A DNA stretch of 64,000 bases, taken from a virus. The stretch is from IMG/VR virus record IMGVR_UViG_3300009130_000013, positions 29,196 to 93,195 of that record; one strand, written 5' to 3'. Each line of letters starts with the position of its first letter. Position 1 is the first letter of the stretch. Under the pieces are notes generated by a model. The model made no database searches. It was not told the DNA's origin and worked only from the letters and a program-made list of their open reading frames with translations. This document shows positions 7,075 to 30,065 of this stretch, piece by piece. Both the position numbers and the translations under genes were made by a program.

Positions 7075-7256
7075 ATACAAAATATTCAACAACACCTAGC
7101 ACAGAAGACAGATTGCTTAATGTTAAAGTTTGGAAAAATATGAATAAAGACAACGCCTGGGTACAATTTATTAGTAAGATTTGGATCAGACGTTTAGCAA
7201 GAGACCTTTCATTAGAAAAGGTTGGGTTAACTCATCACGATGGGTTATATAAATGA
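7071..7256 (+). CDS. small hypothetical protein
   Basis: A 61-residue basic protein (IWIRRLARDLSLEKVGL near the C-terminus). It starts within the stop of the previous gene (ATGA). The function is unknown. Confidence 0.65.
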   Translation: MNTKYSTTPSTEDRLLNVKVWKNMNKDNAWVQFISKIWIRRLARDLSLEKVGLTHHDGLYK

Positions 7257-7300
7257 ATTTGTTTGGGTACGCCAAACATTTAACTGAGGAAGGAGACAAA

Positions 7301-7768
7301 ATGAAGAAACTATATAAACAATTAGCAACAATACTTTTTATTATGGGTATGGTAATTTCTATGCCAACGTTTGCTTATAGTGAAGGGTTTATAAGACAAG
7401 GAAAGGTTATTGATCATTATAAGATGGTTATTGATCGTGTACCTTACCAAGTTGAAGTATGCCAAAAAGTAACAGGTCAACCTGGTGCTTCATCGGCTGA
7501 TGTCATAGTTGGTGCTATAATTGGTGGTGCTGTAGGTAACCAAATTGGTAAAGGCAAAGGTAACGATGCCGCAACTATTTTGGGTGCTATTTTAGGTGCC
7601 GATATTGCCAATAAAAGTAAACCAGGTACTACAGGTTCAACTCAATGTTTTTTAGAAACTCGTTATAATGAAACTGAAAGAAACATATACAGCCATTCTG
7701 TATTACACTTTGAATATGCTGGACGTATGTATTCTGTTTCGTTTGTAAGAGACGGCGTTAACAACTAG
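7301..7768 (+). CDS. glycine-zipper outer-membrane-type protein
   Basis: A 155-residue protein with a Sec signal peptide (MKKLYKQ, hydrophobic core, cleavage near TFAYS). The start was placed at 7301 because GAGGAAGGAG lies just upstream and the signal peptide begins there; an ATG at 7253 would add 16 hydrophilic residues. The mature part has a glycine-zipper segment (VGAIIGGAVGNQIGKGKG) and a second helix (LGAILGADIANKS), as in the Rickettsia 17-kDa antigen / glycine-zipper 2TM family of alphaproteobacteria. Two cysteines may pair. A role in modifying the host envelope or in superinfection exclusion is plausible but unproven. Confidence 0.75.
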   Translation: MKKLYKQLATILFIMGMVISMPTFAYSEGFIRQGKVIDHYKMVIDRVPYQVEVCQKVTGQPGASSADVIVGAIIGGAVGNQIGKGKGNDAATILGAILGADIANKSKPGTTGSTQCFLETRYNETERNIYSHSVLHFEYAGRMYSVSFVRDGVNN

Positions 7769-7779
7769 TAGATAAAATT

Positions 7780-8271
7780 ATGACAATGAGTTTAGCACGT
7801 GGTCTGACCATGCTGAATACAAAAAAGCGAAAACGTAAGACTATTACGGAAAAGCAAAGATTAAAGTATAAGGCAGATCTTAAAGCACATAACAAACGTT
7901 TGAGACAACTACATCTACATAATTCTCAAATGAACCTTGATGATTATATTGATTATGTTCAAGGTTATTATCAGCCACGTAACACATTTCAAGTCCGTAA
8001 AACAATTACCGGGCCTATTTCCACTTCACCTAGGAGTGTAGTGTCAACGGTTAGCACGGCGGTCTCCAAAACCGCAAGTGGGGGTTCGAATCCCTCCGCT
8101 TCTGCCAACCATTCTTGGCGTAACAATTCTAACGGTGGTACTAAAGATTGGAAGGAGCAACAAGAACGTATTGAGATTAGTAAACAATATGCTATTGTTC
8201 CAGCTTATAACAAAGGCCCGTACATGGTCGTATCAAAAGAGGATTTAAAGACGGCCGGGAAGAAGGTCTGA
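7780..8271 (+). CDS. conserved small basic protein interrupted in frame by tRNA-Trp
   Basis: A 163-codon frame. Residues 1-80 are a Lys/Arg-rich helical segment (TKKRKRKTITEKQRLKYKAD, then LDDYIDYVQGYY), and residues 115-163 end in YNKGPYMVVSKEDLKTAGKK, which I associate with the C-terminus of a protein common in marine T4-like phages. Codons 85-110 coincide with a complete tRNA-Trp gene on the same strand. The frame stays open across it although the tRNA's 76 nt is not a multiple of three. Either the tRNA-derived residues form a Ser/Ala/Gly linker, or two separate proteins flank the tRNA. Confidence 0.7.
   Translation: MTMSLARGLTMLNTKKRKRKTITEKQRLKYKADLKAHNKRLRQLHLHNSQMNLDDYIDYVQGYYQPRNTFQVRKTITGPISTSPRSVVSTVSTAVSKTASGGSNPSASANHSWRNNSNGGTKDWKEQQERIEISKQYAIVPAYNKGPYMVVSKEDLKTAGKKV
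8032..8107 (+). tRNA. tRNA-Trp (anticodon CCA)
   Basis: A full 76-nt cloverleaf. The acceptor stem is AGGAGTG with CGCTTCT (two G-U pairs), followed by discriminator G and encoded CCA at 8105-8107. The D-arm is GTGT/GCAC around CAACGGTTA, the anticodon arm is GCGGT-CTCCAAA-ACCGC giving anticodon CCA, and the T-arm is GGGGG-TTCGAAT-CCCTC with the invariant TTCGA. It reads UGG codons. It lies wholly inside the open frame at 7780-8271, on the same strand. Confidence 0.96.
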
Positions 8272-29043: not shown

Positions 29044-30065
29044 TTTGTTTTTCCTTCTGCTTCATCTAGAGCTCCGTTGAATTCCCTTATACGTTTAATA
29101 ACTGATAAAAAGTCTACGATAGTAGTCCATCTATCTATAAAGAATCCCATCGAACTTTCAACTCGTCCAAAGGCGTTAAGCACTTGGAACAAGACCCCTA
29201 GAGTAATTAGTTGATCAAAGTATGCTGGTGCTAATACAATTAAAGCTAAATTACCAACAGCTAATCCAAAAGAAGTTTGCCAAACACCAAAGCCCATATA
29301 CCAGTTAAACAGTCTGTAATAGTTCTTTTTAACTGCCGAGAACATTGGAAATAAAACATCTGTAGCTCTTTCTTTAAAATTGTCTTCTGAAAATACTAAT
29401 TGCTTCCTAAAAGTTGCTTCTACTTTCTGGTTGTTATATTCAAGTTTAGGAAGTTTCCAACCCAGAACAACTGATATTAGTGTACCACCCAATGATACGC
29501 CTAATGCTACCCATACTAAAAACCCAGGAATTATTTGGCCATTCCATACTGGTAAGCCTTCTGATAAATTCCATAGGATTGGAAGGAAGGCAAACAATAT
29601 CAATATAGACGAAAAGAATCCAGTAAACAATCCTTGTAATGTTTTACCGAATATCATTAAGTCTTCTTGAATACGCTGGCTTCCACCTTCTATTTGAGCG
29701 TCACAATTTTCCCACCTTCTTAGGTAGTAGTGTGTATTAGCCTCTCGCCAATGGAAACAATATCTTTGTGTTTGCCACGTGGCGTAAACGGCTATTGGAA
29801 CATACAAGCCTATAATTTCAATAAATGAAGGCATGGTATCTTCTGTTAGTGTAACGAAATCCCAAATCCTCTCGAGATTAAACCCTAGAAATAATTCCCA
29901 AAATCTATCTTCTTGAAGAGATTGAATAGCGTCATAAATTTCTTTATTCCAAGCATTATAAAATACTAGAATTTCTACAGTATACCAAGATATACTTAAT
30001 AATAATGACAACATAACCCAAGCATAAAAGGCCTGACTTCGTTCTAAGAAAAATGACTTTAACAT
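29040..30065 (-). CDS. sbmA: SbmA/BacA-family peptide transporter
   Basis: A 341-residue membrane protein clearly related to E. coli SbmA (406 aa). It has the start FKSFF-like MLKSFFLERSQ, GGSQRIQEDLMIFGKTLQ, WKLPKLEYNNQKVEATFRKQ, FSAVKKNYYRLFNWYMGF and SSMGFFIDRWTTIVDFLSV, matching SbmA order and spacing. It is shorter at the N-terminus. SbmA/BacA import peptides (proline-rich antimicrobial peptides, microcins, bleomycin) across the inner membrane using proton motive force. It has no ATPase domain. AGAGGAG precedes the ATG. It lies between a membrane-anchored ClpP-like peptidase and a TolQ-like channel gene. Confidence 0.92.
   Translation of the reverse strand: MLKSFFLERSQAFYAWVMLSLLLSISWYTVEILVFYNAWNKEIYDAIQSLQEDRFWELFLGFNLERIWDFVTLTEDTMPSFIEIIGLYVPIAVYATWQTQRYCFHWREANTHYYLRRWENCDAQIEGGSQRIQEDLMIFGKTLQGLFTGFFSSILILFAFLPILWNLSEGLPVWNGQIIPGFLVWVALGVSLGGTLISVVLGWKLPKLEYNNQKVEATFRKQLVFSEDNFKERATDVLFPMFSAVKKNYYRLFNWYMGFGVWQTSFGLAVGNLALIVLAPAYFDQLITLGVLFQVLNAFGRVESSMGFFIDRWTTIVDFLSVIKRIREFNGALDEAEGKTK

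Follow-up and report, generated by a model that had tools for sequence, protein, structure and literature searches.

A complete tRNA-Trp gene lies in frame inside the gene of a conserved phage protein and, judged from sequence, the locus probably (at about 0.78) forms one transcription unit with two products, in which a whole tRNA occupies a disordered linker and the protein frame runs through it. The window analyzed here is a 64-kb stretch of DNA, from base 29196 to base 93195 of a virus record that is 93,195 bases long, and the parts of the gene are collected in Table 1. In-frame tRNAs in the linker of the same phage protein family were found in 140 distinct open reading frames (ORFs), and at least eight isotypes occupy the same slot. 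The sequences establish the anatomy of this arrangement, its recurrence, the maintenance of the reading frame, protein-level selection on the flanks and RNA-level selection on the tRNA.

Table 1. Features of the window gene and of the tRNA nested in it.
Feature	Position in window	Strand	Basis
phrog_4593-like host protein gene, 163 aa	7780..8271	+	Frame runs through tRNA; family alignment
N-terminal part, with a basic stretch and a helical domain (codons 1-84)	7780..8031	+	AlphaFold; pN/pS 0.50
Nested tRNA-Trp(CCA) with encoded CCA, codon 85 to first base of codon 110	8032..8107	+	ARAGORN, Rfam
C-terminal conserved part (YAIVPAYNKGPYMVVSKEDLKTAGKKV) and stop	8108..8271	+	Invariant residues; pN/pS 0.23
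Possible competing hairpin, upstream CACTTC with GGAGTG of the acceptor 5' strand	8023..8038	+	Minimum-energy fold of 7982-8157

ARAGORN calls the nested tRNA-Trp(cca), 76 nt long and ending in GCCA, as the sole tRNA of the 64-kb window, and its Rfam match to RF00005 scores 56.9 bits (E 1.2e-9) where the gathering score is 29. These calls confirm the initial annotation, which had described a complete in-frame tRNA-Trp with CCA over codons 85-110 on the same strand as the protein gene. The identity rules of bacterial tRNA-Trp comprise a CCA anticodon, G73 and an encoded CCA end, and the window tRNA has all three. In the rest of the record, outside the window, Rfam finds seven further tRNAs, with no second tRNA-Trp among them. 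One frame of three is open across the tRNA, encoding the residues RSVVSTVSTAVSKTASGGSNPSASA, while the remaining two run into stops, and the 53 conserved C-terminal codons that follow make the tRNA internal to the gene. The CACTTC element just upstream is similar to the 3' terminus of related tRNAs in two homologous loci, L010 and L041 (TTCCACTTC), and no such element stands upstream of the tRNA in either; it may have been left behind by an earlier tRNA or may form a competing hairpin. The neighboring genes encode a glycine-zipper protein (PF05433, window 7253-7768), a small zf-CHCC protein (PF10276, 8272-8475) with an apparent TTG start directly after the host-gene stop, and a glucosaminidase-like protein (PF01832, 8447-9115).

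A scan of viral contigs with the window protein identified 384 relatives, and the 80 best matches were taken forward. The initial annotation had taken the two flanks for one conserved protein and had named homologues in the form of two separate genes as the finding that would speak against it; the homologues among the best 80 of the 384 read as single ORFs, so that this objection fails. The alignment of homologues that it had proposed, as a way to find the tRNA-encoded residues absent, gave that result in the large majority, since 76 among the best 80 of the 384 lack a tRNA in the gene, and the remaining four (L002, L003, L010 and L041) carry a nested tRNA-Trp in the same linker. In L002 and L003, whose ORFs are identical, the tRNA is 75 nt long and its codon phase differs from that of the window, with both flanks in frame. 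Residues P141-G146, Y148, V150 and G160 are invariant in an alignment of 36 family members. The profile match to phrog_4593 is weak (E 0.0079 for the window protein; E <=0.01 in 30 of the 36 members, 2e-5 at best), and no function was obtained with the family protein either from a PDB search or from a BFVD search, which returned no match at E <=0.001. AlphaFold block means for the window protein are 94-97 over residues 21-60 and 67-77 over residues 121-160, and pLDDT falls below 50 over residues 85-103 and 109-119, which places the tRNA in a linker predicted to be disordered. By their sequences, the proteins with PAYNKG, QAYNKGG and MHKSN C-terminal forms look like one family, and L462 joins a Melnitz-like YTG with the MHKSN form. 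The isolates HTVC008M, Mosig, ACP17, PhiW-14, BUCT-ZZ01 and C48C1 have the gene, and ARAGORN finds no tRNA within it; in the Synechococcus phage BUCT-ZZ01 no CDS is annotated where the family member lies (L552:401-826).

How often is the slot filled? A frame-blind pattern scan for a T-arm and CCA lying 75-105 nt upstream of C-terminal PAYNKGP codons matched 16 contigs, and all 16 hold the family gene with an in-frame tRNA, the gene running off the contig end in L237 and L241; Arg(UCU), Pro(UGG) or both replace Trp in 12 of them. A protein-similarity search with the PAYNKGP-type C-terminus found nested tRNAs in 72 of 80 loci and none in the other 8, the 72 holding Arg, Pro, Ala, Asp, Thr and Cys, the tandems Arg+Pro and Ala+Pro, and one degenerate copy. 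A search with the protein of the cultured phage Melnitz gave 65 loci, and a nested tRNA-Trp is present in 45 of the 53 that have the C-terminal anchor, the 12 loci without it being left out of this count. For the MHKSN form, a frame-blind scan matched 75 contigs, 72 of them family members (L499, L506 and L545, unrelated genes matching the pattern, were dropped), and 69 of the 72 are continuous from the N- to the C-terminal part, 6 of these being truncated by the contig end. In all, 234 loci, among which some contigs are counted repeatedly, reduce to 142 distinct ORFs and, without L500 and L534, to the 140 given above, in which the absence of an internal stop holds by construction and was not used as a test. 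The full-length set comprises 128 of the 140, and 12 were dropped because they are cut, lie at a contig edge, have no ATG or have fewer than 20 codons before the tRNA.

The nested types are Trp, Arg, Pro, Ala, Asp, Met, Thr, Cys and a long-arm tRNA called Ile, and tandems occur as Arg+Pro, Ala+Pro and Arg+Met (L354 and similar entries are tandems, ordered by position). The long-arm tRNA, 96 nt with a long variable part, is nested in L482, L515 and L537, and its ARAGORN call as Ile(tat) is doubtful. The records, most of them fragments, also hold free-standing tRNAs; ordinary phage tRNA genes and arrays carry the same kind of cargo as the slot but, where examined in these records, do not lie between two homologous parts of one protein, unlike the nested ones. 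In a separate observation, a tRNA-Thr at L220:1498-1573 on the minus strand overlaps a same-strand open frame of 222 codons, with 42 codons upstream of it and 154 downstream.

Of the distinct ORFs in which a tRNA on the same strand lies no more than 300 nt upstream of the C-terminal domain, all 58 carry it in the open frame of that domain. Among the free-standing tRNAs of the fetched loci (n = 98), a given frame is open in 31.6%, and it is the recurrence of the open frame, rather than the single open frame of the window, that excludes chance. Nested tRNAs are 74, 75, 76, 77, 78 or 96 nt long, mostly not multiples of three, and they sit at several offsets (0, 1 and 2 for Trp; 0 and 1 for each of Asp, Met and Cys). 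That nearby length changes keep the frame, as had been suggested for the window, is borne out by L453 and L433, which have homologous tRNAs in the same place: L453 differs by -10 nt just before the tRNA and by -5 nt just after it, such that the frame differs within the tRNA and agrees on both sides. Likewise, L270 compared with L266 has undergone in-frame loss of most of the second tRNA of an Arg+Pro tandem, of which the first bases remain. The exceptions are L500 and L534, which represent one population in which the N-terminal half is replaced by the end of another gene and the tRNA is kept, and L542, whose frame shifts by 1 nt at a poly-A run in the N-terminal part. These data also bear on a further explanation, in which the ancestral protein would be produced by splicing out or skipping the tRNA. 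The product would then be close to the tRNA-less form, but an excised or skipped stretch needs no open frame, and here the frame is continuous with the tRNA included even as most tRNA lengths are not multiples of three, which leaves this explanation with a negligible probability.

Do the nested tRNAs themselves adapt to remain free of stops? This idea was rejected for Pro and Trp, as SAR11-family tRNA-Pro and tRNA-Trp are already open at offset 0 (20/20 each, 40/40 together), which indicates that the slot filters these isotypes rather than shapes them. Free-standing copies of other isotypes are open at the offset used in 0 of 3 cases for Arg(tct) and 1 of 9 for Thr(tgt). Offset 2 is used solely by the 74-nt tRNA-Trp, where U8-A9-G10 would read UAG in frame, and A8 is found in 12 of 12 distinct tRNA-Trp at this offset. 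By comparison, U8 is the rule among free-standing tRNAs (95 of 98) and among nested tRNAs of the first set (42 of 43). This A8 fits shaping by the frame, but it and the Arg and Thr cases come from few lineages; L453, moreover, combines A8 with offset 1, a reading in which position 8 poses no risk of a stop, and the change may therefore be one single event. A8 may also weaken the function of the 74-nt tRNA-Trp.

Selection was compared between flanks and insert by pN/pS in 14 groups of at least three ORFs each, the members of a group sharing C-terminal form, isotype and offset. Across these groups pN/pS is 0.16-0.60 in the N-terminal part and 0.11-0.42 in the C-terminal part, and 0.34-2.58 in the tRNA, where pS is low; for the three 76-nt Trp ORFs the two flanks give 0.50 and 0.23, respectively. 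Cloverleaf pairing is kept in 98.4% of pair cells, versus 38-53% when the partners are slid, and 18 of the 21 pairs have changed on both sides in some sequence, in an alignment that mixes isotypes and reflects general tRNA diversity. The pN/pS pattern together with the kept pairing indicates that the flanks are selected as protein and the insert as RNA. Both one-sided explanations of the locus are weakened as a result. On the first, only the tRNA matters and the ORF is a relic that is open by chance, as might be read from the retention of the tRNA in L500/L534 after loss of the N-terminal half and from the fraction of tRNA frames that are naturally open (31.6%); purifying selection on both flanks, the compensating frame-shift pair of L433/L453 and the persistence of the protein in tRNA-less relatives make it very improbable. 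On the second, only the protein matters and the tRNA is inert filler of a linker that is predicted to be disordered and that holds degraded copies in L304 and L270. The low pS of the insert with its pN/pS near 1, the kept pairing, and the retention of the encoded CCA and anticodon all argue against such filler, as does the finding that no tRNA-Trp apart from the nested one was detected in any of the four records with the window-type (W-type) arrangement, and we judge it improbable. The longest of these records, G003 with 328,149 bases (the contig of L041 and L091), contains no second tRNA-Trp that could be found; its tRNA-Ala match at 1-73 recurs at the opposite end (328075-328147), which suggests a near-complete jumbo phage genome with a terminal overlap.

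The content of the slot changes while its surroundings stay. L277 with Ala and L281 with Pro have flanks identical in 117 of 126 and 143 of 151 columns, and L321 with Asp and L327 with Pro in 110 of 123 and 136 of 154. A tree of 135 ORFs built with the tRNA-encoded residues masked requires at least 18 changes of tRNA label, on an alignment that is short (142 columns) and leaves many forks open, and in the subtree of the window 4 Trp-bearing and 20 tRNA-less ORFs are intermixed. The ORF is retained in versions with a decayed, deleted or absent tRNA: whereas the nested tRNAs of the other loci scored, in a set of 14, reach 52.5-72.8 bits against RF00005, the tRNA-Pro of L304 has decayed to 32.2 bits with its ORF kept. 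Where do these tRNAs come from? Against the SAR11-family tRNAs of 41 genomes, full-length identity is at most 83% for the window Trp and at most 88% for a nested Pro, so that the nested tRNAs look like diverged phage copies. This divergence counts against the view that the locus is an attP formed from a host tRNA sequence, as does the presence of whole tRNAs and tandems rather than 3' pieces. Tyrosine integrase (PF00589) was found in 0 of 15 records searched, all of them fragments, and the authors who described Melnitz found no integrase in it, according to the sections of their paper drawn on here (PMC9004378); the chance that an attP explains the locus is accordingly minute. On the evidence given for each, a chance open frame, a dead ORF, inert filler, an attP and splicing or bypass were rejected.

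The same family includes a cultured example that is already in GenBank. In phage Melnitz EXVC044M (MZ577097.1), a tRNA-Trp at L409:2614-2687, scoring 50.8 bits in Rfam, lies inside the deposited CDS MelnitzEXVC044M_124, whose protein is 100% identical in three other isolates. It differs from the window gene, where the tRNA starts exactly at codon 85, in having offset 2 and A8. Directly after the tRNA the Melnitz protein reads RQTPDYPSLSN where tRNA-less relatives read RETPNYPSLSN, and with this motif kept the Melnitz tRNA looks like a clean insertion. Locus tag 125 is missing between CDS 124 and CDS 126, and the published description lists tRNA genes 59, 125, 147 and 153 (PMC9004378). The sections of that paper drawn on here state that the tRNA-Trp aligned to no tRNA of the compared hosts or phages and that a two-piece tmRNA is carried, and make no remark on the nesting in CDS 124, the word 'nested' being absent. 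Predicted tryptic peptides of CDS 124 include CYGSTSDSKPLGR, which is wholly tRNA-encoded, and GSIPCSPAIR, which crosses the tRNA 3' end.

How would a single RNA serve both products? Ribosomes passing along the whole message would read the tRNA sequence as roughly 25 residues of the linker and complete the protein. Where the tRNA instead folds ahead of them, RNase P and 3' processing would excise it; the remaining 5' piece would lack a stop codon and the 3' piece a start codon, and such an RNA could not yield the full protein. An either/or outcome per molecule, protein or tRNA, follows from known tRNA processing. We infer that both products, a released and charged tRNA and a full-length protein, arise from the locus and do so in competition. 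The linker would accept almost any stop-free, in-frame sequence, and such tolerance would make it a slot where a tRNA can be inserted, swapped for another, doubled, deleted or left to decay.

Features around the gene bear on the message and its folding. Among the 53 nested ORFs of the first set, 37 (L277, L266 and L318, for example) have a sigma70-like promoter, a near-consensus site resembling TTGACA/TATAAT (at least 10 of 12 positions) whose end lies 6-10 nt upstream of the ATG; its position implies a putative short-leader or leaderless message. Counted over the whole 70 nt upstream, such a site occurs in 38 of the 53 nested versus 9 of 82 tRNA-less ORFs; it is also present in the tRNA-less relative L007, which means that the promoter may predate the tRNA, and it is absent upstream of the window gene. 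Folding predictions count against the two-product reading: the minimum-energy fold of window 7982-8157 contains no cloverleaf, and predicted acceptor pairing in context averages 0.47 for nested (n = 86) versus 0.63 for free tRNAs (n = 95), a difference whose p of 0.013 is not strict because the sequences are related, and is near zero for the window tRNA. Besides its nested tRNA-Trp, the record of L010 holds a permuted tmRNA called by ARAGORN at L095:5938-6365; the Rfam tmRNA model did not reach its cut-off in any of 12 records, the L010 record scoring 34.4 bits.

Is the locus then a switch, as the initial annotation had proposed? In such a scheme tRNA processing would set the amount of protein through ribosome load, RNase P or timing, and trans-translation would clear the nonstop fragments. 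The either/or outcome described above is in its favor, together with the ARAGORN tmRNA call and the fact that in parts of the family (72 of 80 loci) some tRNA persists even as its isotype changes. The same idea has been put forward for selB/selC (PMC8124441), and the two-piece tmRNA of Melnitz (PMC9004378) would supply the clearing step. Nevertheless, close relatives keep the gene with no tRNA (76 among the best 80 of the 384, and 8 of 80 in the second set), the tRNA has decayed or been deleted while the ORF stays (L304, L270), the Rfam tmRNA scores stay below cut-off even in the L010 record, and the free interchange of isotypes speaks against a Trp-specific switch. A regulated protein/tRNA switch is therefore possible and rather unlikely. 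The part of the annotation that stands is insertion of the tRNA into the linker, or its exchange there; its built-in switch is matched or bettered by a tolerated dual-use slot, which fits isotype exchange, tRNA-less relatives and decayed or deleted tRNAs at least as well. We tentatively entertain a more detailed joint reading, with reservations about its parts holding together, in which the linker would be an exchangeable tRNA holder: cassettes would be swapped in frame, each transcript would be committed to protein or tRNA by its ribosome load, and tmRNA, phage-encoded in some of these phages, would clear the nonstop fragments.

The closest known system is selC, the tRNA-Sec gene within selB of Alphaproteobacteria, which was called the first nested tRNA in a bacterial ORF and for which an either/or model of processing versus translation was proposed (Mukai 2021, PMC8124441). 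As far as the parts of that report used here describe it, both systems have a whole tRNA on the same strand and in frame inside an ORF, and in both some copies have decayed, selC copies also becoming separated. However, selC forms a C-terminal extension that overlaps the next start codon, whereas the phage tRNA is an internal linker between conserved parts; selC is one fixed tRNA that partners the encoded protein, whereas the phage slot holds interchangeable isotypes and tandems; and the length of selC is mostly a multiple of three, whereas those of the phage nested tRNAs mostly are not. The same parts of PMC8124441 describe a tRNA-Lys inside cox1 of the Armadillidium vulgare mitochondrion, which likewise lies wholly within a coding region in direct orientation; this is a single organelle case for which they tell of no isotype exchange, in contrast to the phage family. 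Searches of the open-licence PMC literature found no phage report of an in-frame nested tRNA, and PMC8124441 was the sole bacterial report found. 

Annotation pipelines that forbid overlap between tRNA and CDS could lose such genes. It is rare for one set of bases, read on a single strand, to encode both a protein and a structured RNA, and here this recurs in marine T4-like phages. The interchangeable tRNAs are natural replicates for how ribosomes and RNase P share one RNA, and because the cultured pair of Melnitz and Methylophilales sp. H5P1 has the arrangement, this question is directly testable.
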